Positions 19,389 to 48,786 of a DNA stretch of 64,000 nt are shown piece by piece. The stretch comes from Dendrophyllia cribrosa (taxonomy: Eukaryota > Cnidaria > Anthozoa > Scleractinia > Dendrophylliidae). The notes beneath the pieces are model-generated. The model did not search any database, was not told where the DNA came from, and saw only the letters and a list, made by a program, of their open reading frames with translations. Positions within the stretch are counted from its first letter, which is position 1; each line of letters begins with the position of its first letter. The position numbers and the translations under genes were made by a program. The stretch lies in assembly GCA_024195265.1 (NCBI GenBank), contig JAJLRJ010000004.1, forward strand, positions 39,439,030-39,503,029, read 5' to 3'.

Positions 19389-19579
19389 ATAAAAAATATG
19401 TGAAATTGCAACCGGGGGAGTTCTACGCGGCCGGTATGGATGAATTACCCAGAATACCTTTCGGTCGTGAATCGGTCGCGAACAAGGGTTTACAGATTTG
19501 GCTAATCGAATGGCTGTTGCGTAGCACGCTGATGGATTCAGAAGGAAATGTTCACGAAAATACCAAGGAAAGAGATTGA
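19340..19579 (+). CDS. ORF crossing the left edge of the U5 array, unknown
   Basis: 79 codons from a true ATG. The first 17 or so (MQSVKIFASRSGWLNTY) lie in unique flank; from KKYVKLQPGEFYAAGMDELP onward the frame is part of the array monomer. The same frame recurs every 1,063 bp, but interior copies have a different 5' context: there it is open from a TAA stop through a possible TTTCAG splice acceptor, or starts at an internal ATG (19436 in copy 1) giving 47 residues. Composition looks protein-like (IWLIEWLLR), but no family is recognised. It runs opposite to the U5 genes, about 370 bp downstream of their 3' ends. It may be an old exon trapped in the unit. Confidence 0.25.
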   Translation: MQSVKIFASRSGWLNTYKKYVKLQPGEFYAAGMDELPRIPFGRESVANKGLQIWLIEWLLRSTLMDSEGNVHENTKERD

Positions 19580-19890
19580 TTTTTTTCTGTGAATGTAGAC
19601 TTTTGATCTTGAAACTAATTTTTATGCAAACAATTTGAAGAGAAAGGTGCGTGTTTTTTATTGTTGTTCTGGGACGTGGAAATAGGCATTGTTGTATTTG
19701 CTACAGAACAAACGGTCACATGCAGCCGAAGTTGGGTATTGCATTCAGCTTATCGGCTGCCAAAGTTTGAAAAAATAACCGGTTGGCACTATCAATGAGT
19801 CATTCTGATCGTGTGTTTGGATTTGACACAGCTACGTCTTTTTAAAGCAGCAACGGTATTTTCTAGGCCTATATGGCTAGTTGGGCTCAC

Positions 19891-19912
19891 CGCAATATTG
19901 CGTAACGCGTTA
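19891..19912. other. Two abutting perfect palindromes in each monomer
   Basis: CGCAATATTGCG (19891-19902) is directly followed by TAACGCGTTA (19903-19912). They lie ~37-58 bp downstream of the U5 3' end and recur in every monomer. They may bind symmetric dimers or mark the transcription-end region; no known vertebrate-type 3' box was obvious. Confidence 0.5.
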
Positions 19913-19948
19913 GCATTTCTTATTCACGGGTGCCTTTGATTTAGTTTA

Positions 19949-20073
19949 GGAGCCCCGCCGAAAGGCAGGGCGACGAAAAATTAGTCTATAGACTCATTCT
20001 GTTGTTCTCCTCCACGGAAATCTTTAGTAAAAGGCGAAAGATTTGTTCGTGTTGAAGGAAAACCAGAGCTAAT
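19949..20073 (-). ncRNA. RNU5: U5 spliceosomal snRNA, array copy 1
   Basis: U5 aligns exon ends during both splicing steps as part of the U5 and U4/U6.U5 snRNPs. Read on the minus strand, the RNA starts about ATTAGCTCTGG (20073) and contains AAATCTTTCGCCTTTTAC, the universally conserved stem Ic and loop I (GCCTTTTAC at 20027-20035), followed by TAAAGATTTCCGTGGAG. An Sm-like site AATTTTTCG lies at 19974-19982. The 3' hairpin is 8 bp with a UUUC loop (19952-19971). The length of ~125 nt fits metazoan U5. The ends are placed by comparison with remembered human U5 and may be off by a few bases. Confidence 0.95.
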
Positions 20074-20117
20074 GTCTTTTGCGCGGATCGGGACTATGTT
20101 GAGCGCGACGCAGAGAG

Positions 20118-20131
20118 CCATGTGGGACAAA
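20118..20131 (-). promoter_or_regulatory. Candidate U5 proximal sequence element (PSE)
   Basis: On the minus strand, TTGTCCCACATGG lies about 46-57 bp before the U5 start, the usual PSE distance for Pol II snRNA genes. The decayed U5 relic keeps TTGCCCCACATG at the same distance (48996-49007) although surrounding sequence has diverged. It recurs in copies 1-27 and is absent from copy 28. The assignment is inference from position and conservation. Confidence 0.55.
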
Positions 20132-21011
20132 CAAAACTGATTTTTGTACCATAGAACGCATGTTCCTCGAATACACTTAAAGAATTGGAGATAAAATTGT
20201 CAGGTTAGTTCTAATTTGTTTTACTTTCATTTTTTTTTTATTGAATTTTGAATTTCCTAAAGGTCTTCTAGTGATCATGCGCATTAGATGCACGCAATTT
20301 CAATATCTTTCTTTACGTAGTGTATAATTCTGTATATATTTTGGTAACATACTCAGTTGCGTTTTAAATGAAAGCCACAATAACATCAGCAGTTATGGGC
20401 TCCTGCTTGGACATAGTATCTAAGTTTCAGCCGGGGCAAATCCGTACGAGATAAAAAAATATGTGAAATTGCAACCGGGGGAGTTCTACGCGGCCGGTAT
20501 GGATGAATTACCCAGAATACCTTTCGGTCGTGAATCGGTCGCGAACAAGGGTTTACAGATTTGGCTAATCGAATGGCTGTTGCGTAGCACGCTGATGGAT
20601 TCAGAAGGAAATGTTCACGAAAATACCAAGGAAAGAGATTGATTTTTTTCTGTGAATGTAGACTTTTGATCTTGAAACTAATTTTTATGCAAACAATTTG
20701 AAGAGAAAGGTGCGTGTTTTTTATTGTTGTTCTGGGACGTGGAAATAGGCATTGTTGTATTTGCTACAGAACAAACGGTCACATGCAGCCGAAGTTGGGT
20801 ATTGCATTCAGCTTATCGGCTGCCAAAGTTTGAAAAAATAACCGGTTGGCACTATCAATGAGTCATTCTGATCGTGTGTTTGGATTTGACACAGCTACGT
20901 CTTTTTAAAGCAGCAACGGTATTTTCTAGGCCTATATGGCTAGTTGGGCTCACCGCAATATTGCGTAACGCGTTAGCATTTCTTATTCACGGGTGCCTTT
21001 GATTTAGTTTA

Positions 21012-21136
21012 GGAGCCCCGCCGAAAGGCAGGGCGACGAAAAATTAGTCTATAGACTCATTCTGTTGTTCTCCTCCACGGAAATCTTTAGTAAAAGGCGA
21101 AAGATTTGTTCGTGTTGAAGGAAAACCAGAGCTAAT
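21012..21136 (-). ncRNA. RNU5: U5 snRNA, array copy 2
   Basis: Same sequence as copy 1. Confidence 0.94.
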
Positions 21137-22074
21137 GTCTTTTGCGCGGATCGGGACTATGTTGAGCGCGACGCAGAGAGCCATGTGGGACAAACAAAAC
21201 TGATTTTTGTACCATAGAACGCATGTTCCTCGAATACACTTAAAGAATTGGAGATAAAATTGTCAGGTTAGTTCTAATTTGTTTTACTTTCATTTTTTTT
21301 TTATTGAATTTTGAATTTCCTAAAGGTCTTCTAGTGATCATGCGCATTAGATGCACGCAATTTCAATATCTTTCTTTACGTAGTGTATAATTCTGTATAT
21401 ATTTTGGTAACATACTCAGTTGCGTTTTAAATGAAAGCCACAATAACATCAGCAGTTATGGGCTCCTGCTTGGACATAGTATCTAAGTTTCAGCCGGGGC
21501 AAATCCGTACGAGATAAAAAAATATGTGAAATTGCAACCGGGGGAGTTCTACGCGGCCGGTATGGATGAATTACCCAGAATACCTTTCGGTCGTGAATCG
21601 GTCGCGAACAAGGGTTTACAGATTTGGCTAATCGAATGGCTGTTGCGTAGCACGCTGATGGATTCAGAAGGAAATGTTCACGAAAATACCAAGGAAAGAG
21701 ATTGATTTTTTTCTGTGAATGTAGACTTTTGATCTTGAAACTAATTTTTATGCAAACAATTTGAAGAGAAAGGTGCGTGTTTTTTATTGTTGTTCTGGGA
21801 CGTGGAAATAGGCATTGTTGTATTTGCTACAGAACAAACGGTCACATGCAGCCGAAGTTGGGTATTGCATTCAGCTTATCGGCTGCCAAAGTTTGAAAAA
21901 ATAACCGGTTGGCACTATCAATGAGTCATTCTGATCGTGTGTTTGGATTTGACACAGCTACGTCTTTTTAAAGCAGCAACGGTATTTTCTAGGCCTATAT
22001 GGCTAGTTGGGCTCACCGCAATATTGCGTAACGCGTTAGCATTTCTTATTCACGGGTGCCTTTGATTTAGTTTA

Positions 22075-22199
22075 GGAGCCCCGCCGAAAGGCAGGGCGAC
22101 GAAAAATTAGTCTATAGACTCATTCTGTTGTTCTCCTCCACGGAAATCTTTAGTAAAAGGCGAAAGATTTGTTCGTGTTGAAGGAAAACCAGAGCTAAT
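22075..22199 (-). ncRNA. RNU5: U5 snRNA, array copy 3
   Basis: Same sequence as copy 1. Confidence 0.94.
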
Positions 22200-23137
22200 G
22201 TCTTTTGCGCGGATCGGGACTATGTTGAGCGCGACGCAGAGAGCCATGTGGGACAAACAAAACTGATTTTTGTACCATAGAACGCATGTTCCTCGAATAC
22301 ACTTAAAGAATTGGAGATAAAATTGTCAGGTTAGTTCTAATTTGTTTTACTTTCATTTTTTTTTTATTGAATTTTGAATTTCCTAAAGGTCTTCTAGTGA
22401 TCATGCGCATTAGATGCACGCAATTTCAATATCTTTCTTTACGTAGTGTATAATTCTGTATATATTTTGGTAACATACTCAGTTGCGTTTTAAATGAAAG
22501 CCACAATAACATCAGCAGTTATGGGCTCCTGCTTGGACATAGTATCTAAGTTTCAGCCGGGGCAAATCCGTACGAGATAAAAAAATATGTGAAATTGCAA
22601 CCGGGGGAGTTCTACGCGGCCGGTATGGATGAATTACCCAGAATACCTTTCGGTCGTGAATCGGTCGCGAACAAGGGTTTACAGATTTGGCTAATCGAAT
22701 GGCTGTTGCGTAGCACGCTGATGGATTCAGAAGGAAATGTTCACGAAAATACCAAGGAAAGAGATTGATTTTTTTCTGTGAATGTAGACTTTTGATCTTG
22801 AAACTAATTTTTATGCAAACAATTTGAAGAGAAAGGTGCGTGTTTTTTATTGTTGTTCTGGGACGTGGAAATAGGCATTGTTGTATTTGCTACAGAACAA
22901 ACGGTCACATGCAGCCGAAGTTGGGTATTGCATTCAGCTTATCGGCTGCCAAAGTTTGAAAAAATAACCGGTTGGCACTATCAATGAGTCATTCTGATCG
23001 TGTGTTTGGATTTGACACAGCTACGTCTTTTTAAAGCAGCAACGGTATTTTCTAGGCCTATATGGCTAGTTGGGCTCACCGCAATATTGCGTAACGCGTT
23101 AGCATTTCTTATTCACGGGTGCCTTTGATTTAGTTTA

Positions 23138-23262
23138 GGAGCCCCGCCGAAAGGCAGGGCGACGAAAAATTAGTCTATAGACTCATTCTGTTGTTCTCCT
23201 CCACGGAAATCTTTAGTAAAAGGCGAAAGATTTGTTCGTGTTGAAGGAAAACCAGAGCTAAT
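23138..23262 (-). ncRNA. RNU5: U5 snRNA, array copy 4
   Basis: Same sequence as copy 1. Confidence 0.94.
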
Positions 23263-24200
23263 GTCTTTTGCGCGGATCGGGACTATGTTGAGCGCGACGC
23301 AGAGAGCCATGTGGGACAAACAAAACTGATTTTTGTACCATAGAACGCATGTTCCTCGAATACACTTAAAGAATTGGAGATAAAATTGTCAGGTTAGTTC
23401 TAATTTGTTTTACTTTCATTTTTTTTTTATTGAATTTTGAATTTCCTAAAGGTCTTCTAGTGATCATGCGCATTAGATGCACGCAATTTCAATATCTTTC
23501 TTTACGTAGTGTATAATTCTGTATATATTTTGGTAACATACTCAGTTGCGTTTTAAATGAAAGCCACAATAACATCAGCAGTTATGGGCTCCTGCTTGGA
23601 CATAGTATCTAAGTTTCAGCCGGGGCAAATCCGTACGAGATAAAAAAATATGTGAAATTGCAACCGGGGGAGTTCTACGCGGCCGGTATGGATGAATTAC
23701 CCAGAATACCTTTCGGTCGTGAATCGGTCGCGAACAAGGGTTTACAGATTTGGCTAATCGAATGGCTGTTGCGTAGCACGCTGATGGATTCAGAAGGAAA
23801 TGTTCACGAAAATACCAAGGAAAGAGATTGATTTTTTTCTGTGAATGTAGACTTTTGATCTTGAAACTAATTTTTATGCAAACAATTTGAAGAGAAAGGT
23901 GCGTGTTTTTTATTGTTGTTCTGGGACGTGGAAATAGGCATTGTTGTATTTGCTACAGAACAAACGGTCACATGCAGCCGAAGTTGGGTATTGCATTCAG
24001 CTTATCGGCTGCCAAAGTTTGAAAAAATAACCGGTTGGCACTATCAATGAGTCATTCTGATCGTGTGTTTGGATTTGACACAGCTACGTCTTTTTAAAGC
24101 AGCAACGGTATTTTCTAGGCCTATATGGCTAGTTGGGCTCACCGCAATATTGCGTAACGCGTTAGCATTTCTTATTCACGGGTGCCTTTGATTTAGTTTA

Positions 24201-24325
24201 GGAGCCCCGCCGAAAGGCAGGGCGACGAAAAATTAGTCTATAGACTCATTCTGTTGTTCTCCTCCACGGAAATCTTTAGTAAAAGGCGAAAGATTTGTTC
24301 GTGTTGAAGGAAAACCAGAGCTAAT
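24201..24325 (-). ncRNA. RNU5: U5 snRNA, array copy 5
   Basis: Same sequence as copy 1. Confidence 0.94.
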
Positions 24326-25263
24326 GTCTTTTGCGCGGATCGGGACTATGTTGAGCGCGACGCAGAGAGCCATGTGGGACAAACAAAACTGATTTTTGTA
24401 CCATAGAACGCATGTTCCTCGAATACACTTAAAGAATTGGAGATAAAATTGTCAGGTTAGTTCTAATTTGTTTTACTTTCATTTTTTTTTTATTGAATTT
24501 TGAATTTCCTAAAGGTCTTCTAGTGATCATGCGCATTAGATGCACGCAATTTCAATATCTTTCTTTACGTAGTGTATAATTCTGTATATATTTTGGTAAC
24601 ATACTCAGTTGCGTTTTAAATGAAAGCCACAATAACATCAGCAGTTATGGGCTCCTGCTTGGACATAGTATCTAAGTTTCAGCCGGGGCAAATCCGTACG
24701 AGATAAAAAAATATGTGAAATTGCAACCGGGGGAGTTCTACGCGGCCGGTATGGATGAATTACCCAGAATACCTTTCGGTCGTGAATCGGTCGCGAACAA
24801 GGGTTTACAGATTTGGCTAATCGAATGGCTGTTGCGTAGCACGCTGATGGATTCAGAAGGAAATGTTCACGAAAATACCAAGGAAAGAGATTGATTTTTT
24901 TCTGTGAATGTAGACTTTTGATCTTGAAACTAATTTTTATGCAAACAATTTGAAGAGAAAGGTGCGTGTTTTTTATTGTTGTTCTGGGACGTGGAAATAG
25001 GCATTGTTGTATTTGCTACAGAACAAACGGTCACATGCAGCCGAAGTTGGGTATTGCATTCAGCTTATCGGCTGCCAAAGTTTGAAAAAATAACCGGTTG
25101 GCACTATCAATGAGTCATTCTGATCGTGTGTTTGGATTTGACACAGCTACGTCTTTTTAAAGCAGCAACGGTATTTTCTAGGCCTATATGGCTAGTTGGG
25201 CTCACCGCAATATTGCGTAACGCGTTAGCATTTCTTATTCACGGGTGCCTTTGATTTAGTTTA

Positions 25264-25388
25264 GGAGCCCCGCCGAAAGGCAGGGCGACGAAAAATTAGT
25301 CTATAGACTCATTCTGTTGTTCTCCTCCACGGAAATCTTTAGTAAAAGGCGAAAGATTTGTTCGTGTTGAAGGAAAACCAGAGCTAAT
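25264..25388 (-). ncRNA. RNU5: U5 snRNA, array copy 6
   Basis: Same sequence as copy 1. Confidence 0.94.
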
Positions 25389-26326
25389 GTCTTTTGCGCG
25401 GATCGGGACTATGTTGAGCGCGACGCAGAGAGCCATGTGGGACAAACAAAACTGATTTTTGTACCATAGAACGCATGTTCCTCGAATACACTTAAAGAAT
25501 TGGAGATAAAATTGTCAGGTTAGTTCTAATTTGTTTTACTTTCATTTTTTTTTTATTGAATTTTGAATTTCCTAAAGGTCTTCTAGTGATCATGCGCATT
25601 AGATGCACGCAATTTCAATATCTTTCTTTACGTAGTGTATAATTCTGTATATATTTTGGTAACATACTCAGTTGCGTTTTAAATGAAAGCCACAATAACA
25701 TCAGCAGTTATGGGCTCCTGCTTGGACATAGTATCTAAGTTTCAGCCGGGGCAAATCCGTACGAGATAAAAAAATATGTGAAATTGCAACCGGGGGAGTT
25801 CTACGCGGCCGGTATGGATGAATTACCCAGAATACCTTTCGGTCGTGAATCGGTCGCGAACAAGGGTTTACAGATTTGGCTAATCGAATGGCTGTTGCGT
25901 AGCACGCTGATGGATTCAGAAGGAAATGTTCACGAAAATACCAAGGAAAGAGATTGATTTTTTTCTGTGAATGTAGACTTTTGATCTTGAAACTAATTTT
26001 TATGCAAACAATTTGAAGAGAAAGGTGCGTGTTTTTTATTGTTGTTCTGGGACGTGGAAATAGGCATTGTTGTATTTGCTACAGAACAAACGGTCACATG
26101 CAGCCGAAGTTGGGTATTGCATTCAGCTTATCGGCTGCCAAAGTTTGAAAAAATAACCGGTTGGCACTATCAATGAGTCATTCTGATCGTGTGTTTGGAT
26201 TTGACACAGCTACGTCTTTTTAAAGCAGCAACGGTATTTTCTAGGCCTATATGGCTAGTTGGGCTCACCGCAATATTGCGTAACGCGTTAGCATTTCTTA
26301 TTCACGGGTGCCTTTGATTTAGTTTA

Positions 26327-26451
26327 GGAGCCCCGCCGAAAGGCAGGGCGACGAAAAATTAGTCTATAGACTCATTCTGTTGTTCTCCTCCACGGAAATC
26401 TTTAGTAAAAGGCGAAAGATTTGTTCGTGTTGAAGGAAAACCAGAGCTAAT
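26327..26451 (-). ncRNA. RNU5: U5 snRNA, array copy 7
   Basis: Same sequence as copy 1. Confidence 0.94.
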
Positions 26452-27389
26452 GTCTTTTGCGCGGATCGGGACTATGTTGAGCGCGACGCAGAGAGCCATG
26501 TGGGACAAACAAAACTGATTTTTGTACCATAGAACGCATGTTCCTCGAATACACTTAAAGAATTGGAGATAAAATTGTCAGGTTAGTTCTAATTTGTTTT
26601 ACTTTCATTTTTTTTTTATTGAATTTTGAATTTCCTAAAGGTCTTCTAGTGATCATGCGCATTAGATGCACGCAATTTCAATATCTTTCTTTACGTAGTG
26701 TATAATTCTGTATATATTTTGGTAACATACTCAGTTGCGTTTTAAATGAAAGCCACAATAACATCAGCAGTTATGGGCTCCTGCTTGGACATAGTATCTA
26801 AGTTTCAGCCGGGGCAAATCCGTACGAGATAAAAAAATATGTGAAATTGCAACCGGGGGAGTTCTACGCGGCCGGTATGGATGAATTACCCAGAATACCT
26901 TTCGGTCGTGAATCGGTCGCGAACAAGGGTTTACAGATTTGGCTAATCGAATGGCTGTTGCGTAGCACGCTGATGGATTCAGAAGGAAATGTTCACGAAA
27001 ATACCAAGGAAAGAGATTGATTTTTTTCTGTGAATGTAGACTTTTGATCTTGAAACTAATTTTTATGCAAACAATTTGAAGAGAAAGGTGCGTGTTTTTT
27101 ATTGTTGTTCTGGGACGTGGAAATAGGCATTGTTGTATTTGCTACAGAACAAACGGTCACATGCAGCCGAAGTTGGGTATTGCATTCAGCTTATCGGCTG
27201 CCAAAGTTTGAAAAAATAACCGGTTGGCACTATCAATGAGTCATTCTGATCGTGTGTTTGGATTTGACACAGCTACGTCTTTTTAAAGCAGCAACGGTAT
27301 TTTCTAGGCCTATATGGCTAGTTGGGCTCACCGCAATATTGCGTAACGCGTTAGCATTTCTTATTCACGGGTGCCTTTGATTTAGTTTA

Positions 27390-27514
27390 GGAGCCCCGCC
27401 GAAAGGCAGGGCGACGAAAAATTAGTCTATAGACTCATTCTGTTGTTCTCCTCCACGGAAATCTTTAGTAAAAGGCGAAAGATTTGTTCGTGTTGAAGGA
27501 AAACCAGAGCTAAT
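27390..27514 (-). ncRNA. RNU5: U5 snRNA, array copy 8
   Basis: Same sequence as copy 1. Confidence 0.94.
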
Positions 27515-28452
27515 GTCTTTTGCGCGGATCGGGACTATGTTGAGCGCGACGCAGAGAGCCATGTGGGACAAACAAAACTGATTTTTGTACCATAGAACGC
27601 ATGTTCCTCGAATACACTTAAAGAATTGGAGATAAAATTGTCAGGTTAGTTCTAATTTGTTTTACTTTCATTTTTTTTTTATTGAATTTTGAATTTCCTA
27701 AAGGTCTTCTAGTGATCATGCGCATTAGATGCACGCAATTTCAATATCTTTCTTTACGTAGTGTATAATTCTGTATATATTTTGGTAACATACTCAGTTG
27801 CGTTTTAAATGAAAGCCACAATAACATCAGCAGTTATGGGCTCCTGCTTGGACATAGTATCTAAGTTTCAGCCGGGGCAAATCCGTACGAGATAAAAAAA
27901 TATGTGAAATTGCAACCGGGGGAGTTCTACGCGGCCGGTATGGATGAATTACCCAGAATACCTTTCGGTCGTGAATCGGTCGCGAACAAGGGTTTACAGA
28001 TTTGGCTAATCGAATGGCTGTTGCGTAGCACGCTGATGGATTCAGAAGGAAATGTTCACGAAAATACCAAGGAAAGAGATTGATTTTTTTCTGTGAATGT
28101 AGACTTTTGATCTTGAAACTAATTTTTATGCAAACAATTTGAAGAGAAAGGTGCGTGTTTTTTATTGTTGTTCTGGGACGTGGAAATAGGCATTGTTGTA
28201 TTTGCTACAGAACAAACGGTCACATGCAGCCGAAGTTGGGTATTGCATTCAGCTTATCGGCTGCCAAAGTTTGAAAAAATAACCGGTTGGCACTATCAAT
28301 GAGTCATTCTGATCGTGTGTTTGGATTTGACACAGCTACGTCTTTTTAAAGCAGCAACGGTATTTTCTAGGCCTATATGGCTAGTTGGGCTCACCGCAAT
28401 ATTGCGTAACGCGTTAGCATTTCTTATTCACGGGTGCCTTTGATTTAGTTTA

Positions 28453-28577
28453 GGAGCCCCGCCGAAAGGCAGGGCGACGAAAAATTAGTCTATAGACTCA
28501 TTCTGTTGTTCTCCTCCACGGAAATCTTTAGTAAAAGGCGAAAGATTTGTTCGTGTTGAAGGAAAACCAGAGCTAAT
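28453..28577 (-). ncRNA. RNU5: U5 snRNA, array copy 9
   Basis: Same sequence as copy 1. Confidence 0.94.
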
Positions 28578-29515
28578 GTCTTTTGCGCGGATCGGGACTA
28601 TGTTGAGCGCGACGCAGAGAGCCATGTGGGACAAACAAAACTGATTTTTGTACCATAGAACGCATGTTCCTCGAATACACTTAAAGAATTGGAGATAAAA
28701 TTGTCAGGTTAGTTCTAATTTGTTTTACTTTCATTTTTTTTTTATTGAATTTTGAATTTCCTAAAGGTCTTCTAGTGATCATGCGCATTAGATGCACGCA
28801 ATTTCAATATCTTTCTTTACGTAGTGTATAATTCTGTATATATTTTGGTAACATACTCAGTTGCGTTTTAAATGAAAGCCACAATAACATCAGCAGTTAT
28901 GGGCTCCTGCTTGGACATAGTATCTAAGTTTCAGCCGGGGCAAATCCGTACGAGATAAAAAAATATGTGAAATTGCAACCGGGGGAGTTCTACGCGGCCG
29001 GTATGGATGAATTACCCAGAATACCTTTCGGTCGTGAATCGGTCGCGAACAAGGGTTTACAGATTTGGCTAATCGAATGGCTGTTGCGTAGCACGCTGAT
29101 GGATTCAGAAGGAAATGTTCACGAAAATACCAAGGAAAGAGATTGATTTTTTTCTGTGAATGTAGACTTTTGATCTTGAAACTAATTTTTATGCAAACAA
29201 TTTGAAGAGAAAGGTGCGTGTTTTTTATTGTTGTTCTGGGACGTGGAAATAGGCATTGTTGTATTTGCTACAGAACAAACGGTCACATGCAGCCGAAGTT
29301 GGGTATTGCATTCAGCTTATCGGCTGCCAAAGTTTGAAAAAATAACCGGTTGGCACTATCAATGAGTCATTCTGATCGTGTGTTTGGATTTGACACAGCT
29401 ACGTCTTTTTAAAGCAGCAACGGTATTTTCTAGGCCTATATGGCTAGTTGGGCTCACCGCAATATTGCGTAACGCGTTAGCATTTCTTATTCACGGGTGC
29501 CTTTGATTTAGTTTA

Positions 29516-29640
29516 GGAGCCCCGCCGAAAGGCAGGGCGACGAAAAATTAGTCTATAGACTCATTCTGTTGTTCTCCTCCACGGAAATCTTTAGTAAAAG
29601 GCGAAAGATTTGTTCGTGTTGAAGGAAAACCAGAGCTAAT
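29516..29640 (-). ncRNA. RNU5: U5 snRNA, array copy 10
   Basis: Same sequence as copy 1. Confidence 0.94.
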
Positions 29641-30578
29641 GTCTTTTGCGCGGATCGGGACTATGTTGAGCGCGACGCAGAGAGCCATGTGGGACAAACA
29701 AAACTGATTTTTGTACCATAGAACGCATGTTCCTCGAATACACTTAAAGAATTGGAGATAAAATTGTCAGGTTAGTTCTAATTTGTTTTACTTTCATTTT
29801 TTTTTTATTGAATTTTGAATTTCCTAAAGGTCTTCTAGTGATCATGCGCATTAGATGCACGCAATTTCAATATCTTTCTTTACGTAGTGTATAATTCTGT
29901 ATATATTTTGGTAACATACTCAGTTGCGTTTTAAATGAAAGCCACAATAACATCAGCAGTTATGGGCTCCTGCTTGGACATAGTATCTAAGTTTCAGCCG
30001 GGGCAAATCCGTACGAGATAAAAAAATATGTGAAATTGCAACCGGGGGAGTTCTACGCGGCCGGTATGGATGAATTACCCAGAATACCTTTCGGTCGTGA
30101 ATCGGTCGCGAACAAGGGTTTACAGATTTGGCTAATCGAATGGCTGTTGCGTAGCACGCTGATGGATTCAGAAGGAAATGTTCACGAAAATACCAAGGAA
30201 AGAGATTGATTTTTTTCTGTGAATGTAGACTTTTGATCTTGAAACTAATTTTTATGCAAACAATTTGAAGAGAAAGGTGCGTGTTTTTTATTGTTGTTCT
30301 GGGACGTGGAAATAGGCATTGTTGTATTTGCTACAGAACAAACGGTCACATGCAGCCGAAGTTGGGTATTGCATTCAGCTTATCGGCTGCCAAAGTTTGA
30401 AAAAATAACCGGTTGGCACTATCAATGAGTCATTCTGATCGTGTGTTTGGATTTGACACAGCTACGTCTTTTTAAAGCAGCAACGGTATTTTCTAGGCCT
30501 ATATGGCTAGTTGGGCTCACCGCAATATTGCGTAACGCGTTAGCATTTCTTATTCACGGGTGCCTTTGATTTAGTTTA

Positions 30579-30703
30579 GGAGCCCCGCCGAAAGGCAGGG
30601 CGACGAAAAATTAGTCTATAGACTCATTCTGTTGTTCTCCTCCACGGAAATCTTTAGTAAAAGGCGAAAGATTTGTTCGTGTTGAAGGAAAACCAGAGCT
30701 AAT
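30579..30703 (-). ncRNA. RNU5: U5 snRNA, array copy 11
   Basis: Same sequence as copy 1. Confidence 0.94.
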
Positions 30704-31641: not shown

Positions 31642-31766
31642 GGAGCCCCGCCGAAAGGCAGGGCGACGAAAAATTAGTCTATAGACTCATTCTGTTGTTC
31701 TCCTCCACGGAAATCTTTAGTAAAAGGCGAAAGATTTGTTCGTGTTGAAGGAAAACCAGAGCTAAT
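31642..31766 (-). ncRNA. RNU5: U5 snRNA, array copy 12
   Basis: Same sequence as copy 1. Confidence 0.94.
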
Positions 31767-35893: not shown

Positions 35894-36018
35894 GGAGCCC
35901 CGCCGAAAGGCAGGGCGACGAAAAATTAGTCTATAGACTCATTCTGTTGTTCTCCTCCACGGAAATCTTTAGTAAAAGGCGAAAGATTTGTTCGTGTTGA
36001 AGGAAAACCAGAGCTAAT
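35894..36018 (-). ncRNA. RNU5: U5 snRNA, array copy 16
   Basis: RNA as in copy 1. The far-upstream poly-T run of this monomer (about 36175-36183) is one base shorter, so all later copies are shifted by one. Confidence 0.94.
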
Positions 36019-36955: not shown

Positions 36956-37080
36956 GGAGCCCCGCCGAAAGGCAGGGCGACGAAAAATTAGTCTATAGAC
37001 TCATTCTGTTGTTCTCCTCCACGGAAATCTTTAGTAAAAGGCGAAAGATTTGTTCGTGTTGAAGGAAAACCAGAGCTAAT
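36956..37080 (-). ncRNA. RNU5: U5 snRNA, array copy 17
   Basis: Same sequence as copy 1. Confidence 0.94.
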
Positions 37081-38018
37081 GTCTTTTGCGCGGATCGGGA
37101 CTATGTTGAGCGCGACGCAGAGAGCCATGTGGGACAAACAAAACTGATTTTTGTACCATAGAACGCATGTTCCTCGAATACACTTAAAGAATTGGAGATA
37201 AAATTGTCAGGTTAGTTCTAATTTGTTTTACTTTCATTTTTTTTTTATTGAATTTTGAATTTCCTAAAGGTCTTCTAGTGATCATGCGCATTAGATGCAC
37301 GCAATTTCAATATCTTTCTTTACGTAGTGTATAATTCTGTATATATTTTGGTAACATACTCAGTTGCGTTTTAAATGAAAGCCACAATAACATCAGCAGT
37401 TATGGGCTCCTGCTTGGACATAGTATCTAAGTTTCAGCCGGGGCAAATCCGTACGAGATAAAAAAATATGTGAAATTGCAACCGGGGGAGTTCTACGCGG
37501 CCGGTATGGATGAATTACCCAGAATACCTTTCGGTCGTGAATCGGTCGCGAACAAGGGTTTACAGATTTGGCTAATCGAATGGCTGTTGCGTAGCACGCT
37601 GATGGATTCAGAAGGAAATGTTCACGAAAATACCAAGGAAAGAGATTGATTTTTTTCTGTGAATGTAGACTTTTGATCTTGAAACTAATTTTTATGCAAA
37701 CAATTTGAAGAGAAAGGTGCGTGTTTTTTATTGTTGTTCTGGGACGTGGAAATAGGCATTGTTGTATTTGCTACAGAACAAACGGTCACATGCAGCCGAA
37801 GTTGGGTATTGCATTCAGCTTATCGGCTGCCAAAGTTTGAAAAAATAACCGGTTGGCACTATCAATGAGTCATTCTGATCGTGTGTTTGGATTTGACACA
37901 GCTACGTCTTTTTAAAGCAGCAACGGTATTTTCTAGGCCTATATGGCTAGTTGGGCTCACCGCAATATTGCGTAACGCGTTAGCATTTCTTATTCACGGG
38001 TGCCTTTGATTTAGTTTA

Positions 38019-38143
38019 GGAGCCCCGCCGAAAGGCAGGGCGACGAAAAATTAGTCTATAGACTCATTCTGTTGTTCTCCTCCACGGAAATCTTTAGTAA
38101 AAGGCGAAAGATTTGTTCGTGTTGAAGGAAAACCAGAGCTAAT
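38019..38143 (-). ncRNA. RNU5: U5 snRNA, array copy 18
   Basis: Same sequence as copy 1. Confidence 0.94.
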
Positions 38144-39081
38144 GTCTTTTGCGCGGATCGGGACTATGTTGAGCGCGACGCAGAGAGCCATGTGGGACAA
38201 ACAAAACTGATTTTTGTACCATAGAACGCATGTTCCTCGAATACACTTAAAGAATTGGAGATAAAATTGTCAGGTTAGTTCTAATTTGTTTTACTTTCAT
38301 TTTTTTTTTATTGAATTTTGAATTTCCTAAAGGTCTTCTAGTGATCATGCGCATTAGATGCACGCAATTTCAATATCTTTCTTTACGTAGTGTATAATTC
38401 TGTATATATTTTGGTAACATACTCAGTTGCGTTTTAAATGAAAGCCACAATAACATCAGCAGTTATGGGCTCCTGCTTGGACATAGTATCTAAGTTTCAG
38501 CCGGGGCAAATCCGTACGAGATAAAAAAATATGTGAAATTGCAACCGGGGGAGTTCTACGCGGCCGGTATGGATGAATTACCCAGAATACCTTTCGGTCG
38601 TGAATCGGTCGCGAACAAGGGTTTACAGATTTGGCTAATCGAATGGCTGTTGCGTAGCACGCTGATGGATTCAGAAGGAAATGTTCACGAAAATACCAAG
38701 GAAAGAGATTGATTTTTTTCTGTGAATGTAGACTTTTGATCTTGAAACTAATTTTTATGCAAACAATTTGAAGAGAAAGGTGCGTGTTTTTTATTGTTGT
38801 TCTGGGACGTGGAAATAGGCATTGTTGTATTTGCTACAGAACAAACGGTCACATGCAGCCGAAGTTGGGTATTGCATTCAGCTTATCGGCTGCCAAAGTT
38901 TGAAAAAATAACCGGTTGGCACTATCAATGAGTCATTCTGATCGTGTGTTTGGATTTGACACAGCTACGTCTTTTTAAAGCAGCAACGGTATTTTCTAGG
39001 CCTATATGGCTAGTTGGGCTCACCGCAATATTGCGTAACGCGTTAGCATTTCTTATTCACGGGTGCCTTTGATTTAGTTTA

Positions 39082-39206
39082 GGAGCCCCGCCGAAAGGCA
39101 GGGCGACGAAAAATTAGTCTATAGACTCATTCTGTTGTTCTCCTCCACGGAAATCTTTAGTAAAAGGCGAAAGATTTGTTCGTGTTGAAGGAAAACCAGA
39201 GCTAAT
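39082..39206 (-). ncRNA. RNU5: U5 snRNA, array copy 19
   Basis: Same sequence as copy 1. Confidence 0.94.
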
Positions 39207-40144
39207 GTCTTTTGCGCGGATCGGGACTATGTTGAGCGCGACGCAGAGAGCCATGTGGGACAAACAAAACTGATTTTTGTACCATAGAACGCATGTTCCT
39301 CGAATACACTTAAAGAATTGGAGATAAAATTGTCAGGTTAGTTCTAATTTGTTTTACTTTCATTTTTTTTTTATTGAATTTTGAATTTCCTAAAGGTCTT
39401 CTAGTGATCATGCGCATTAGATGCACGCAATTTCAATATCTTTCTTTACGTAGTGTATAATTCTGTATATATTTTGGTAACATACTCAGTTGCGTTTTAA
39501 ATGAAAGCCACAATAACATCAGCAGTTATGGGCTCCTGCTTGGACATAGTATCTAAGTTTCAGCCGGGGCAAATCCGTACGAGATAAAAAAATATGTGAA
39601 ATTGCAACCGGGGGAGTTCTACGCGGCCGGTATGGATGAATTACCCAGAATACCTTTCGGTCGTGAATCGGTCGCGAACAAGGGTTTACAGATTTGGCTA
39701 ATCGAATGGCTGTTGCGTAGCACGCTGATGGATTCAGAAGGAAATGTTCACGAAAATACCAAGGAAAGAGATTGATTTTTTTCTGTGAATGTAGACTTTT
39801 GATCTTGAAACTAATTTTTATGCAAACAATTTGAAGAGAAAGGTGCGTGTTTTTTATTGTTGTTCTGGGACGTGGAAATAGGCATTGTTGTATTTGCTAC
39901 AGAACAAACGGTCACATGCAGCCGAAGTTGGGTATTGCATTCAGCTTATCGGCTGCCAAAGTTTGAAAAAATAACCGGTTGGCACTATCAATGAGTCATT
40001 CTGATCGTGTGTTTGGATTTGACACAGCTACGTCTTTTTAAAGCAGCAACGGTATTTTCTAGGCCTATATGGCTAGTTGGGCTCACCGCAATATTGCGTA
40101 ACGCGTTAGCATTTCTTATTCACGGGTGCCTTTGATTTAGTTTA

Positions 40145-40269
40145 GGAGCCCCGCCGAAAGGCAGGGCGACGAAAAATTAGTCTATAGACTCATTCTGTTG
40201 TTCTCCTCCACGGAAATCTTTAGTAAAAGGCGAAAGATTTGTTCGTGTTGAAGGAAAACCAGAGCTAAT
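40145..40269 (-). ncRNA. RNU5: U5 snRNA, array copy 20
   Basis: Same sequence as copy 1. Confidence 0.94.
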
Positions 40270-41207
40270 GTCTTTTGCGCGGATCGGGACTATGTTGAGC
40301 GCGACGCAGAGAGCCATGTGGGACAAACAAAACTGATTTTTGTACCATAGAACGCATGTTCCTCGAATACACTTAAAGAATTGGAGATAAAATTGTCAGG
40401 TTAGTTCTAATTTGTTTTACTTTCATTTTTTTTTTATTGAATTTTGAATTTCCTAAAGGTCTTCTAGTGATCATGCGCATTAGATGCACGCAATTTCAAT
40501 ATCTTTCTTTACGTAGTGTATAATTCTGTATATATTTTGGTAACATACTCAGTTGCGTTTTAAATGAAAGCCACAATAACATCAGCAGTTATGGGCTCCT
40601 GCTTGGACATAGTATCTAAGTTTCAGCCGGGGCAAATCCGTACGAGATAAAAAAATATGTGAAATTGCAACCGGGGGAGTTCTACGCGGCCGGTATGGAT
40701 GAATTACCCAGAATACCTTTCGGTCGTGAATCGGTCGCGAACAAGGGTTTACAGATTTGGCTAATCGAATGGCTGTTGCGTAGCACGCTGATGGATTCAG
40801 AAGGAAATGTTCACGAAAATACCAAGGAAAGAGATTGATTTTTTTCTGTGAATGTAGACTTTTGATCTTGAAACTAATTTTTATGCAAACAATTTGAAGA
40901 GAAAGGTGCGTGTTTTTTATTGTTGTTCTGGGACGTGGAAATAGGCATTGTTGTATTTGCTACAGAACAAACGGTCACATGCAGCCGAAGTTGGGTATTG
41001 CATTCAGCTTATCGGCTGCCAAAGTTTGAAAAAATAACCGGTTGGCACTATCAATGAGTCATTCTGATCGTGTGTTTGGATTTGACACAGCTACGTCTTT
41101 TTAAAGCAGCAACGGTATTTTCTAGGCCTATATGGCTAGTTGGGCTCACCGCAATATTGCGTAACGCGTTAGCATTTCTTATTCACGGGTGCCTTTGATT
41201 TAGTTTA

Positions 41208-41332
41208 GGAGCCCCGCCGAAAGGCAGGGCGACGAAAAATTAGTCTATAGACTCATTCTGTTGTTCTCCTCCACGGAAATCTTTAGTAAAAGGCGAAAGA
41301 TTTGTTCGTGTTGAAGGAAAACCAGAGCTAAT
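41208..41332 (-). ncRNA. RNU5: U5 snRNA, array copy 21
   Basis: Same sequence as copy 1. Confidence 0.94.
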
Positions 41333-42270
41333 GTCTTTTGCGCGGATCGGGACTATGTTGAGCGCGACGCAGAGAGCCATGTGGGACAAACAAAACTGAT
41401 TTTTGTACCATAGAACGCATGTTCCTCGAATACACTTAAAGAATTGGAGATAAAATTGTCAGGTTAGTTCTAATTTGTTTTACTTTCATTTTTTTTTTAT
41501 TGAATTTTGAATTTCCTAAAGGTCTTCTAGTGATCATGCGCATTAGATGCACGCAATTTCAATATCTTTCTTTACGTAGTGTATAATTCTGTATATATTT
41601 TGGTAACATACTCAGTTGCGTTTTAAATGAAAGCCACAATAACATCAGCAGTTATGGGCTCCTGCTTGGACATAGTATCTAAGTTTCAGCCGGGGCAAAT
41701 CCGTACGAGATAAAAAAATATGTGAAATTGCAACCGGGGGAGTTCTACGCGGCCGGTATGGATGAATTACCCAGAATACCTTTCGGTCGTGAATCGGTCG
41801 CGAACAAGGGTTTACAGATTTGGCTAATCGAATGGCTGTTGCGTAGCACGCTGATGGATTCAGAAGGAAATGTTCACGAAAATACCAAGGAAAGAGATTG
41901 ATTTTTTTCTGTGAATGTAGACTTTTGATCTTGAAACTAATTTTTATGCAAACAATTTGAAGAGAAAGGTGCGTGTTTTTTATTGTTGTTCTGGGACGTG
42001 GAAATAGGCATTGTTGTATTTGCTACAGAACAAACGGTCACATGCAGCCGAAGTTGGGTATTGCATTCAGCTTATCGGCTGCCAAAGTTTGAAAAAATAA
42101 CCGGTTGGCACTATCAATGAGTCATTCTGATCGTGTGTTTGGATTTGACACAGCTACGTCTTTTTAAAGCAGCAACGGTATTTTCTAGGCCTATATGGCT
42201 AGTTGGGCTCACCGCAATATTGCGTAACGCGTTAGCATTTCTTATTCACGGGTGCCTTTGATTTAGTTTA

Positions 42271-42395
42271 GGAGCCCCGCCGAAAGGCAGGGCGACGAAA
42301 AATTAGTCTATAGACTCATTCTGTTGTTCTCCTCCACGGAAATCTTTAGTAAAAGGCGAAAGATTTGTTCGTGTTGAAGGAAAACCAGAGCTAAT
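42271..42395 (-). ncRNA. RNU5: U5 snRNA, array copy 22
   Basis: Same sequence as copy 1. Confidence 0.94.
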
Positions 42396-43333
42396 GTCTT
42401 TTGCGCGGATCGGGACTATGTTGAGCGCGACGCAGAGAGCCATGTGGGACAAACAAAACTGATTTTTGTACCATAGAACGCATGTTCCTCGAATACACTT
42501 AAAGAATTGGAGATAAAATTGTCAGGTTAGTTCTAATTTGTTTTACTTTCATTTTTTTTTTATTGAATTTTGAATTTCCTAAAGGTCTTCTAGTGATCAT
42601 GCGCATTAGATGCACGCAATTTCAATATCTTTCTTTACGTAGTGTATAATTCTGTATATATTTTGGTAACATACTCAGTTGCGTTTTAAATGAAAGCCAC
42701 AATAACATCAGCAGTTATGGGCTCCTGCTTGGACATAGTATCTAAGTTTCAGCCGGGGCAAATCCGTACGAGATAAAAAAATATGTGAAATTGCAACCGG
42801 GGGAGTTCTACGCGGCCGGTATGGATGAATTACCCAGAATACCTTTCGGTCGTGAATCGGTCGCGAACAAGGGTTTACAGATTTGGCTAATCGAATGGCT
42901 GTTGCGTAGCACGCTGATGGATTCAGAAGGAAATGTTCACGAAAATACCAAGGAAAGAGATTGATTTTTTTCTGTGAATGTAGACTTTTGATCTTGAAAC
43001 TAATTTTTATGCAAACAATTTGAAGAGAAAGGTGCGTGTTTTTTATTGTTGTTCTGGGACGTGGAAATAGGCATTGTTGTATTTGCTACAGAACAAACGG
43101 TCACATGCAGCCGAAGTTGGGTATTGCATTCAGCTTATCGGCTGCCAAAGTTTGAAAAAATAACCGGTTGGCACTATCAATGAGTCATTCTGATCGTGTG
43201 TTTGGATTTGACACAGCTACGTCTTTTTAAAGCAGCAACGGTATTTTCTAGGCCTATATGGCTAGTTGGGCTCACCGCAATATTGCGTAACGCGTTAGCA
43301 TTTCTTATTCACGGGTGCCTTTGATTTAGTTTA

Positions 43334-43458
43334 GGAGCCCCGCCGAAAGGCAGGGCGACGAAAAATTAGTCTATAGACTCATTCTGTTGTTCTCCTCCAC
43401 GGAAATCTTTAGTAAAAGGCGAAAGATTTGTTCGTGTTGAAGGAAAACCAGAGCTAAT
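43334..43458 (-). ncRNA. RNU5: U5 snRNA, array copy 23
   Basis: Same sequence as copy 1. Confidence 0.94.
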
Positions 43459-44396
43459 GTCTTTTGCGCGGATCGGGACTATGTTGAGCGCGACGCAGAG
43501 AGCCATGTGGGACAAACAAAACTGATTTTTGTACCATAGAACGCATGTTCCTCGAATACACTTAAAGAATTGGAGATAAAATTGTCAGGTTAGTTCTAAT
43601 TTGTTTTACTTTCATTTTTTTTTTATTGAATTTTGAATTTCCTAAAGGTCTTCTAGTGATCATGCGCATTAGATGCACGCAATTTCAATATCTTTCTTTA
43701 CGTAGTGTATAATTCTGTATATATTTTGGTAACATACTCAGTTGCGTTTTAAATGAAAGCCACAATAACATCAGCAGTTATGGGCTCCTGCTTGGACATA
43801 GTATCTAAGTTTCAGCCGGGGCAAATCCGTACGAGATAAAAAAATATGTGAAATTGCAACCGGGGGAGTTCTACGCGGCCGGTATGGATGAATTACCCAG
43901 AATACCTTTCGGTCGTGAATCGGTCGCGAACAAGGGTTTACAGATTTGGCTAATCGAATGGCTGTTGCGTAGCACGCTGATGGATTCAGAAGGAAATGTT
44001 CACGAAAATACCAAGGAAAGAGATTGATTTTTTTCTGTGAATGTAGACTTTTGATCTTGAAACTAATTTTTATGCAAACAATTTGAAGAGAAAGGTGCGT
44101 GTTTTTTATTGTTGTTCTGGGACGTGGAAATAGGCATTGTTGTATTTGCTACAGAACAAACGGTCACATGCAGCCGAAGTTGGGTATTGCATTCAGCTTA
44201 TCGGCTGCCAAAGTTTGAAAAAATAACCGGTTGGCACTATCAATGAGTCATTCTGATCGTGTGTTTGGATTTGACACAGCTACGTCTTTTTAAAGCAGCA
44301 ACGGTATTTTCTAGGCCTATATGGCTAGTTGGGCTCACCGCAATATTGCGTAACGCGTTAGCATTTCTTATTCACGGGTGCCTTTGATTTAGTTTA

Positions 44397-44521
44397 GGAG
44401 CCCCGCCGAAAGGCAGGGCGACGAAAAATTAGTCTATAGACTCATTCTGTTGTTCTCCTCCACGGAAATCTTTAGTAAAAGGCGAAAGATTTGTTCGTGT
44501 TGAAGGAAAACCAGAGCTAAT
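44397..44521 (-). ncRNA. RNU5: U5 snRNA, array copy 24
   Basis: Same sequence as copy 1. Confidence 0.94.
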
Positions 44522-45459
44522 GTCTTTTGCGCGGATCGGGACTATGTTGAGCGCGACGCAGAGAGCCATGTGGGACAAACAAAACTGATTTTTGTACCAT
44601 AGAACGCATGTTCCTCGAATACACTTAAAGAATTGGAGATAAAATTGTCAGGTTAGTTCTAATTTGTTTTACTTTCATTTTTTTTTTATTGAATTTTGAA
44701 TTTCCTAAAGGTCTTCTAGTGATCATGCGCATTAGATGCACGCAATTTCAATATCTTTCTTTACGTAGTGTATAATTCTGTATATATTTTGGTAACATAC
44801 TCAGTTGCGTTTTAAATGAAAGCCACAATAACATCAGCAGTTATGGGCTCCTGCTTGGACATAGTATCTAAGTTTCAGCCGGGGCAAATCCGTACGAGAT
44901 AAAAAAATATGTGAAATTGCAACCGGGGGAGTTCTACGCGGCCGGTATGGATGAATTACCCAGAATACCTTTCGGTCGTGAATCGGTCGCGAACAAGGGT
45001 TTACAGATTTGGCTAATCGAATGGCTGTTGCGTAGCACGCTGATGGATTCAGAAGGAAATGTTCACGAAAATACCAAGGAAAGAGATTGATTTTTTTCTG
45101 TGAATGTAGACTTTTGATCTTGAAACTAATTTTTATGCAAACAATTTGAAGAGAAAGGTGCGTGTTTTTTATTGTTGTTCTGGGACGTGGAAATAGGCAT
45201 TGTTGTATTTGCTACAGAACAAACGGTCACATGCAGCCGAAGTTGTGTATTGCATTCAGCTTATCGGCTGCCAAAGTTTGAAAAAATAACCGGTTGGCAC
45301 TATCAATGAGTCATTCTGATCGTGTGTTTGGATTTGACACAGCTACGTCTTTTTAAAGCAGCAACGGTATTTTCTAGGCCTATATGGCTAGTTGGGCTCA
45401 CCGCAATATTGCGTAACGCGTTAGCATTTCTTATTCACGGGTGCCTTTGATTTAGTTTA

Positions 45460-45584
45460 GGAGCCCCGCCGAAAGGCAGGGCGACGAAAAATTAGTCTAT
45501 AGACTCATTCTGTTGTTCTCCTCCACGGAAATCTTTAGTAAAAGGCGAAAGATTTGTTCGTGTTGAAGGAAAACCAGAGCTAAT
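45460..45584 (-). ncRNA. RNU5: U5 snRNA, array copy 25
   Basis: RNA as in copy 1. This monomer carries the G-to-T change at 45246, about 215 bp downstream of the U5 3' end. Confidence 0.94.
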
Positions 45585-46522
45585 GTCTTTTGCGCGGATC
45601 GGGACTATGTTGAGCGCGACGCAGAGAGCCATGTGGGACAAACAAAACTGATTTTTGTACCATAGAACGCATGTTCCTCGAATACACTTAAAGAATTGGA
45701 GATAAAATTGTCAGGTTAGTTCTAATTTGTTTTACTTTCATTTTTTTTTTATTGAATTTTGAATTTCCTAAAGGTCTTCTAGTGATCATGCGCATTAGAT
45801 GCACGCAATTTCAATATCTTTCTTTACGTAGTGTATAATTCTGTATATATTTTGGTAACATACTCAGTTGCGTTTTAAATGAAAGCCACAATAACATCAG
45901 CAGTTATGGGCTCCTGCTTGGACATAGTATCTAAGTTTCAGCCGGGGCAAATCCGTACGAGATAAAAAAATATGTGAAATTGCAACCGGGGGAGTTCTAC
46001 GCGGCCGGTATGGATGAATTACCCAGAATACCTTTCGGTCGTGAATCGGTCGCGAACAAGGGTTTACAGATTTGGCTAATCGAATGGCTGTTGCGTAGCA
46101 CGCTGATGGATTCAGAAGGAAATGTTCACGAAAATACCAAGGAAAGAGATTGATTTTTTTCTGTGAATGTAGACTTTTGATCTTGAAACTAATTTTTATG
46201 CAAACAATTTGAAGAGAAAGGTGCGTGTTTTTTATTGTTGTTCTGGGACGTGGAAATAGGCATTGTTGTATTTGCTACAGAACAAACGGTCACATGCAGC
46301 CGAAGTTGGGTATTGCATTCAGCTTATCGGCTGCCAAAGTTTGAAAAAATAACCGGTTGGCACTATCAATGAGTCATTCTGATCGTGTGTTTGGATTTGA
46401 CACAGCTACGTCTTTTTAAAGCAGCAACGGTATTTTCTAGGCCTATATGGCTAGTTGGGCTCACCGCAATATTGCGTAACGCGTTAGCATTTCTTATTCA
46501 CGGGTGCCTTTGATTTAGTTTA

Positions 46523-46647
46523 GGAGCCCCGCCGAAAGGCAGGGCGACGAAAAATTAGTCTATAGACTCATTCTGTTGTTCTCCTCCACGGAAATCTTTA
46601 GTAAAAGGCGAAAGATTTGTTCGTGTTGAAGGAAAACCAGAGCTAAT
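46523..46647 (-). ncRNA. RNU5: U5 snRNA, array copy 26
   Basis: Same sequence as copy 1. Confidence 0.94.
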
Positions 46648-47585
46648 GTCTTTTGCGCGGATCGGGACTATGTTGAGCGCGACGCAGAGAGCCATGTGGG
46701 ACAAACAAAACTGATTTTTGTACCATAGAACGCATGTTCCTCGAATACACTTAAAGAATTGGAGATAAAATTGTCAGGTTAGTTCTAATTTGTTTTACTT
46801 TCATTTTTTTTTTATTGAATTTTGAATTTCCTAAAGGTCTTCTAGTGATCATGCGCATTAGATGCACGCAATTTCAATATCTTTCTTTACGTAGTGTATA
46901 ATTCTGTATATATTTTGGTAACATACTCAGTTGCGTTTTAAATGAAAGCCACAATAACATCAGCAGTTATGGGCTCCTGCTTGGACATAGTATCTAAGTT
47001 TCAGCCGGGGCAAATCCGTACGAGATAAAAAAATATGTGAAATTGCAACCGGGGGAGTTCTACGCGGCCGGTATGGATGAATTACCCAGAATACCTTTCG
47101 GTCGTGAATCGGTCGCGAACAAGGGTTTACAGATTTGGCTAATCGAATGGCTGTTGCGTAGCACGCTGATGGATTCAGAAGGAAATGTTCACGAAAATAC
47201 CAAGGAAAGAGATTGATTTTTTTCTGTGAATGTAGACTTTTGATCTTGAAACTAATTTTTATGCAAACAATTTGAAGAGAAAGGTGCGTGTTTTTTATTG
47301 TTGTTCTGGGACGTGGAAATAGGCATTGTTGTATTTGCTACAGAACAAACGGTCACATGCAGCCGAAGTTGGGTATTGCATTCAGCTTATCGGCTGCCAA
47401 AGTTTGAAAAAATAACCGGTTGGCACTATCAATGAGTCATTCTGATCGTGTGTTTGGATTTGACACAGCTACGTCTTTTTAAAGCAGCAACGGTATTTTC
47501 TAGGCCTATATGGCTAGTTGGGCTCACCGCAATATTGCGTAACGCGTTAGCATTTCTTATTCACGGGTGCCTTTGATTTAGTTTA

Positions 47586-47710
47586 GGAGCCCCGCCGAAA
47601 GGCAGGGCGACGAAAAATTAGTCTATAGACTCATTCTGTTGTTCTCCTCCACGGAAATCTTTAGTAAAAGGCGAAAGATTTGTTCGTGTTGAAGGAAAAC
47701 CAGAGCTAAT
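47586..47710 (-). ncRNA. RNU5: U5 snRNA, array copy 27
   Basis: Same sequence as copy 1. Last copy with an intact upstream region. Confidence 0.94.
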
Positions 47711-48648
47711 GTCTTTTGCGCGGATCGGGACTATGTTGAGCGCGACGCAGAGAGCCATGTGGGACAAACAAAACTGATTTTTGTACCATAGAACGCATGT
47801 TCCTCGAATACACTTAAAGAATTGGAGATAAAATTGTCAGGTTAGTTCTAATTTGTTTTACTTTCATTTTTTTTTTATTGAATTTTGAATTTCCTAAAGG
47901 TCTTCTAGTGATCATGCGCATTAGATGCACGCAATTTCAATATCTTTCTTTACGTAGTGTATAATTCTGTATATATTTTGGTAACATACTCAGTTGCGTT
48001 TTAAATGAAAGCCACAATAACATCAGCAGTTATGGGCTCCTGCTTGGACATAGTATCTAAGTTTCAGCCGGGGCAAATCCGTACGAGATAAAAAAATATG
48101 TGAAATTGCAACCGGGGGAGTTCTACGCGGCCGGTATGGATGAATTACCCAGAATACCTTTCGGTCGTGAATCGGTCGCGAACAAGGGTTTACAGATTTG
48201 GCTAATCGAATGGCTGTTGCGTAGCACGCTGATGGATTCAGAAGGAAATGTTCACGAAAATACCAAGGAAAGAGATTGATTTTTTTCTGTGAATGTAGAC
48301 TTTTGATCTTGAAACTAATTTTTATGCAAACAATTTGAAGAGAAAGGTGCGTGTTTTTTATTGTTGTTCTGGGACGTGGAAATAGGCATTGTTGTATTTG
48401 CTACAGAACAAACGGTCACATGCAGCCGAAGTTGGGTATTGCATTCAGCTTATCGGCTGCCAAAGTTTGAAAAAATAACCGGTTGGCACTATCAATGAGT
48501 CATTCTGATCGTGTGTTTGGATTTGACACAGCTACGTCTTTTTAAAGCAGCAACGGTATTTTCTAGGCCTATATGGCTAGTTGGGCTCACCGCAATATTG
48601 CGTAACGCGTTAGCATTTCTTATTCACGGGTGCCTTTGATTTAGTTTA

Positions 48649-48773
48649 GGAGCCCCGCCGAAAGGCAGGGCGACGAAAAATTAGTCTATAGACTCATTCT
48701 GTTGTTCTCCTCCACGGAAATCTTTAGTAAAAGGCGAAAGATTTGTTCGTGTTGAAGGAAAACCAGAGTTAAT
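48649..48773 (-). ncRNA. RNU5: U5 snRNA, edge copy 28, promoter lost
   Basis: The RNA body matches copy 1 except C to T on the plus strand at 48769, near the RNA 5' end. About 10 bp upstream of its start the sequence jumps (48783) to the end of the monomer (ATAGTATCTAAGCTTCAGCC), so the PSE-like block is missing. The 5' variant and the GCGGAGA that follows match the decayed relic, suggesting a hybrid at the array edge. Probably silent. Confidence 0.8.
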
Positions 48774-48786
48774 GTCTTTTGCGGAG

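Follow-up and report, generated by a model that had tools for sequence, protein, structure and literature searches.

A window of 64,000 nucleotides of Dendrophyllia cribrosa DNA (the whole stretch analysed, C17:39439030-39503029, from a 627-Mb, 22-contig assembly that was also used for the genome scans) contains a tandem array of U5 small nuclear RNA (snRNA) genes, with 28 copies arranged head to tail at a period of 1,063 bp, all on the minus strand, between positions 19391 and 48783. Judged from its sequence, this is in all probability (roughly 0.85) a recently expanded, homogenised array of functional-looking U5 genes supplying spliceosomal U5 RNA. The array and its common gene are laid out as follows.

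19391-48783, minus strand: tandem U5 array, 27 full 1,063-bp units and one partial unit, 28 U5 genes (self-comparison, Rfam scan)
19951-20071, minus strand: U5 snRNA gene, leftmost of 27 identical copies, 121 nt (RF00020, 95.0 bits; fold −41.6 kcal/mol, z −4.45)
Every 1,063 bp from there (one interval 1,062), up to 47588-47708, minus strand: further identical U5 copies

Self-comparison, BLAST and an Rfam scan agreed on this layout, and with the original prediction (28 copies of a 1,063-bp monomer on the minus strand at 19391..48783, proposed from the letters alone). Comparison of the window with itself at a shift of 1,063 was perfect over 19391-35120, 36175-44182, 44184-45245 and 45247-47705, and at a shift of 1,062 over 35113-36183. 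One unit used as BLAST query returned 27 full units at 99.9-100% identity and a 681-bp partial unit at 19391. The Rfam U5 model (RF00020, gathering score 40), suggested earlier as a check on the identity of the genes, matched 28 minus-strand segments of the array over model positions 1-117 of 117, 27 of them at 95.0 bits and one at 97.2 bits. The period limit of Tandem Repeats Finder (TRF) was 500, which made the 1,063-bp array invisible to that program.

The near-perfect homogeneity claimed for the array was borne out. U5 sequences were identical in 27 of the 28 copies, and 24 of 27 U5-to-U5 units, spacers included, were identical letter for letter; the other three differed by one change each, namely a T10 run one base short (unit 36017-37078), G>T at 45246 (these two being the interior changes already noticed) and C>T at 48769 in the U5 copy at the promoter-side edge. 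The longest stretch with no distinguishing mark was 19391-36183, about 16.8 kb. Since the spacers match as well as the gene while the edges diverge, the repeats have the make-up of a homogenised tandem array, and the earlier suggestion of evolution in concert is upheld. With a spacer this close to invariant, selection on U5 alone would be insufficient, and recent expansion or active homogenisation would be needed.

U5 was the sole gene recognised in the unit, as had been proposed. Over 19000-22300, Rfam searched at a permissive threshold (E up to 1) gave U5 and no other RNA gene, and the longest open reading frame in the unit (125 aa), the one frame compared with Pfam, had no match there; a second RNA gene, and a protein domain in that frame, were ruled out on these grounds.

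U5 RNA, promoter-like element and dispersed copies

The array RNA retains the hallmarks of U5: loop I (CGCCUUUUACU) on a long stem, the Sm site AAUUUUU and a terminal 3′ hairpin. Both the common form and the edge form folded far better than shuffled sequences (z −4.45 and −5.12, respectively). In an alignment of 17 U5 sequences from the same genome (omitting the four poorest dispersed copies, one duplicate, the edge copy and a pseudogene described below), the array sequence broke none of 38 predicted pairs, some of which involve the Sm region and are absent from the Rfam structure. A C at nt 27 together with an A at nt 72 was specific to the array, this combination occurring in none of the other 16 rows; the nearest dispersed form differed from the array U5 at 5 of 121 nt, and array form and edge copy clustered together (98/96) in a 24-row tree.

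Scanning of the genome with RF00020 (E ≤ 1e-3) gave at least 46 hits, of which the array accounted for 28, the rest of C17 for 14, C18 for three and C2 for one; these counts are lower bounds, 47 of 72,110 candidates having been scored. Within the sequences around the 18 non-array places three more weak copies scored above the Rfam cut-off, giving 21 dispersed copies for examination. C17, which held 14 of the 18 non-array hits, makes up about 9% of the assembly.

Upstream of the array genes lies a conserved 12-mer that we name, by analogy, after the proximal sequence element (PSE) of snRNA genes, and a candidate 3′-end box, likewise named by analogy, follows them.

20119-20130, minus strand: PSE-like element, core TTGTCCCACATG, at −59 to −48 of the leftmost U5
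19931-19950, minus strand: candidate 3′ box, the 3′ flank directly after U5, CCTAAACTAAATCAAAGGCA

All array copies except the edge copy (48651-48771), 27 of 28, have the exact core, starting 59 bp ahead of the gene; with up to two mismatches it was present in 16 of 21 dispersed copies, in all 16 starting at −59 to −61. Of 1,058 random 150-bp flank windows, nine carried it, an enrichment that is partly by construction because the 12-mer was chosen from these very sequences, and the fixed spacing is the stronger argument. Conservation per 10-bp step peaked at −60 to −51 (94%) and fell to 56-58% beside the gene in 18 rows, which had been selected for carrying the element, so that the peak there is also partly by construction. 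The predicted function as a PSE is in keeping with the location 40-60 nt upstream given for snRNA genes in the account of PMC3464664. A second conserved block, GCGCATGCG with the octamer-like ATGTAAAT, was found at roughly −95 to −70 and is partly degenerate in the array. The start of the array 3′ flank, CCTAAACTA, also follows 11 of the 21 dispersed copies. U5 is transcribed by RNA polymerase II in other animals, and each of the 27 units with a PSE would be transcribed independently from its own element by that polymerase.

The array had been suggested to be probably the main U5 locus of the genome. This part of the original prediction is likely, with 28 of at least 46 U5 hits in the array; it is held at that strength because 16 of 21 dispersed copies keep the PSE-like element, because many dispersed genes look usable, and because other U5 copies may be missing. 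On the latter point, no genuine U2 gene turned up in the 22 contigs; the U2 scan returned two hits, both resembling pseudogenes (best 46 of 36,447 candidates scored), and a search for a near-invariant U2 motif gave one match, with two mismatches. Either U2 genes are absent from the contigs or they were overlooked by the search, and counts of snRNA genes, U5 included, may therefore be incomplete here. With nothing beyond these pseudogene-like hits and the imperfect motif match, U2 was dropped as a yardstick of array organisation.

Array edges, spacer repeat and proposed history

Both ends of the array differ in structure from its interior, and nearly half of each unit is a piece of a dispersed repeat.

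48651-48771, minus strand: edge U5 copy, one substitution, RNA intact, without PSE (97.2 bits)
48772-48821, minus strand: truncated sequence upstream of the edge copy, lacking about 325 bp (unit positions ~13-337, PSE included)
48827-48949, minus strand: decayed U5 pseudogene adjoining the array, 29th RF00020 match (54.4 bits)
20454-20948, no strand assigned: 495-bp dispersed-repeat piece in the spacer (one unit given; common to all; genome matches)
18961-19885, no strand assigned: dispersed repeat, longer form, spanning the left edge of the array at 19391 (genome matches)

The edge U5 has the top Rfam score in the window. It is probably not transcribed from a promoter of its own, judging from the loss of the PSE with the upstream sequence. 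In the adjoining pseudogene the 3′ stem-loop and the Sm site have decayed and the sequence folds no better than shuffles (z +1.24); a PSE-like element is retained at −58.

The spacer piece occupies unit positions 383-877, 495 of 1,063 bp. Among the 50 genome matches listed, a partial list in which the array itself does not appear (best 39 of 1,010 candidates scored), 25 hit this piece, the 12 longest at 85-94%. At the left edge, 8 of 20 loci compared match the flank from 18961 or 18978 to about 19885, unbroken across 19391, at 84-91%; the edge thus sits inside the element, of which the units hold the right part alone. Dispersed copies are about 1 kb long with ends like TTAACCCTTT...AAAGGGTTAA. 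Ends were printed for five of them: L026 has TTAACCCTTT...AAAGGGTTAA on both sides, and L025, L027, L029 and L031 have altered versions. We take these TTAA-type ends to resemble those of piggyBac-type elements. At the junction between units the element abuts sequence whose counterpart at the right edge immediately follows the 3′ end of the neighbouring U5. The spacer piece, the left edge inside the repeat and the promoter loss of the edge copy are new here; the original prediction was without them and without the 29th U5 match.

As the left edge lies within an element that continues outside, the array probably began as a non-homologous tandem duplication and was then multiplied and kept uniform. 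At the outset, two U5 genes would have stood side by side, one of them closely followed by a dispersed element of about 1 kb. One breakpoint of a non-homologous tandem duplication would have fallen inside the element and the other shortly beyond the 3′ end of the neighbouring U5, and their joining would have given the first 1,063-bp repeat; unequal crossing-over, gene conversion or both would have brought the number to 28 and held gene and spacer uniform. The edges would then have escaped, the promoter-side U5 losing its PSE and the neighbouring U5 decaying. The order of these steps, the mode of homogenisation, expression and the polymerase are what we infer from the anatomy described above. 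Microhomology (ATAAAAAA) was considered as the cause of the first duplication and rejected, the right edge being without that run at the matching place; a non-homologous junction, possibly with a 3-nt filler, is suggested by the sequence and is uncertain.

Alternative explanations

Some observations weigh against a homogenised array of working U5 genes with this history. The copy number comes from a single assembly in which the 16.8-kb mark-free stretch is included. The edge region has diverged, which leaves the ancestral breakpoint, the possible filler included, uncertain. Several dispersed U5 genes are preceded by the octamer-like ATGTAAAT; the array has a degenerate form of it, and the array enhancer may consequently be weaker. 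In the 17-row alignment, none of the 38 pairs was changed on both sides, so that covariation gives no proof of selection; as a proof of selection on the dispersed U5 copies the test was silent and was set aside.

A U5-derived satellite, that is, a once-functional unit spreading as a repeat and giving little or no U5 RNA while the dispersed genes do the work, would be in line with the PSE-like element kept in 16 of 21 dispersed copies, the degenerate octamer-like motif and a unit of which 495 of 1,063 bp are dispersed repeat, but is unlikely, in that both RNA forms making up all 28 copies retain fold, loop I and Sm site and all but one of the 28 have an exact PSE core; this case is weakened by the fact that, with so few mutations anywhere in the array, conservation within it says little on selection. 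The long stretch free of marks, the low number of differing units (3 of 27) and the lack of genuine U2 genes among the contigs, which hints that snRNA arrays may be incomplete in the assembly, could instead reflect an assembly artefact, with a few real units over-expanded or the copy number set by the assembler. We consider such an artefact improbable in view of the two interior marks and the two structurally different edges, and misassembled arrays more often come out collapsed or broken than over-expanded. Amplification driven by the element in place of unequal exchange, for instance through an excised circle that carried U5 and element and was replicated, could explain why the unit junction falls within the element; the unit, however, has one truncated side of the element, its junction is not at an element terminus, and head-to-tail order with diverged edges is explained by unequal exchange alone, which makes this route very improbable. 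An expanded and homogenised array of functional-looking U5 genes is thus the reading retained.

Split U5 genes, neighbouring features and related arrays

Three dispersed U5 genes are split by a common low-copy, A-tailed insert of about 0.9 kb with its 5′ junction in loop I; they lie in the two C17 stretches listed first below.

L015:1177-4687 (C17:43181176-43184686): A-tailed insert in U5 gene
L009:8551-9650 (C17:38656550-38657649): A-tailed insert in U5 gene
L044:1462-2473 (C16:55825770-55826781): fourth long insert copy, U5 nt 4-40 in front, no U5 downstream, no recognisable PSE

Each split gene has its promoter and roughly the first 40 nt of U5, then the insert, ending ...GCCATAGATAC(A)n, and then U5 again, which resumes at nt 2 in two loci (39 nt repeated) and at about nt 28 in one; the latter also holds a second, palindromic insert. 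A genome search with the insert (25 of 25 candidates scored, 27 rows) gave four long copies at 83% or more, three in U5 and one on C16, and a 93-bp tail at C17:49878838, the remaining rows being diverged relatives (67-79%) or pieces of 44-66 bp. U5 sequence was present at the four long-copy loci alone among the 20 loci returned, and an Rfam scan of ten loci yielded no U5. The C16 copy is what reverse transcription and relocation of an RNA begun at a U5 promoter would be expected to leave. It is nevertheless doubtful that U5 genes are targeted by a retroelement, with the array as a protected stock: a single insertion may be the source of all three split genes, as their 5′ junction is the same and, of the three possible pairs, two have downstream homology in common (84-86% over 196-295 bp), the third pair sharing none. 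In the list of known retroelement targets among snRNA genes given in 2015 in PMC4640811, as far as that account extends, U1, U2 and U6 only are named, and a U5-specific retroelement, if true, would be new relative to it.

Other inserts and repeats were observed. At L018:4141-4464 (C18:32396140-32396463) a U5 gene is interrupted by about 0.2 kb of inserted DNA, which has inverted ends and is accompanied by a target duplication of about 10 bp (AAAGATTTCC), and at L010:5178-7204 (C17:38663178-38665204) a U5 promoter is parted from its gene by an insert of about 1.8 kb, the ends of which (GAGCTATTTTGAAAA) are mutually inverted. A separate tandem repeat with a period of about 105 bp was reported by TRF at 1886-2628 of the window (about six copies, 80-83% matches). 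The array is flanked by a receptor gene.

8418-10421, minus strand: Frizzled receptor gene, 666 aa scanned (Pfam Frizzled 1.1e-128, Fz 7.3e-33)

The 14 closest relatives of the Frizzled protein are at 75-90%; the best matches with a species name come from Actinia tenebrosa (62% identity over 82%) and Nematostella (55%), which points to a cnidarian, probably a hexacorallian.

Among known systems, human RNU2 is one of the classic homogenised U1/U2 arrays, with a single snRNA gene in each of its near-identical units; the coral array is alike in both respects, and RNU2 differs in encoding another RNA and in its larger unit. The U2-U5 arrays of fishes (Plectorhinchus and others), as presented in PMC3464664, similarly have U5 in a tandem unit of about 1 kb with PSE, 3′ box and a repeated spacer, but the fish unit combines U2 with U5, whereas here U5 stands alone with a piece of a dispersed repeat. 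Tandem snRNA genes are described for anthozoans in the corals Acropora pruinosa (U1-U2-5S repeats, PMC8167085) and Favites pentagona (U2-5S repeats, PMC9005458); these are other snRNAs, linked to 5S, and no coral U5 array is reported in the relevant passages of the two papers. U3-U5 linkages are mentioned for Euglena. No U5-only array was found in the portions of the open full-text literature that were searched, and older work on U5 may describe one.

The array of D. cribrosa is of a known kind, and provides a clear, nearly uniform U5-only snRNA array outside the bilaterians in which the probable event of birth, a tandem duplication with one end in a dispersed element, is still readable. The promoterless edge copy and the array-specific letters of the U5 RNA are natural tags by which the shares of the array and of the dispersed genes in the snRNA pool of one animal could be told apart and the decay of array edges followed.

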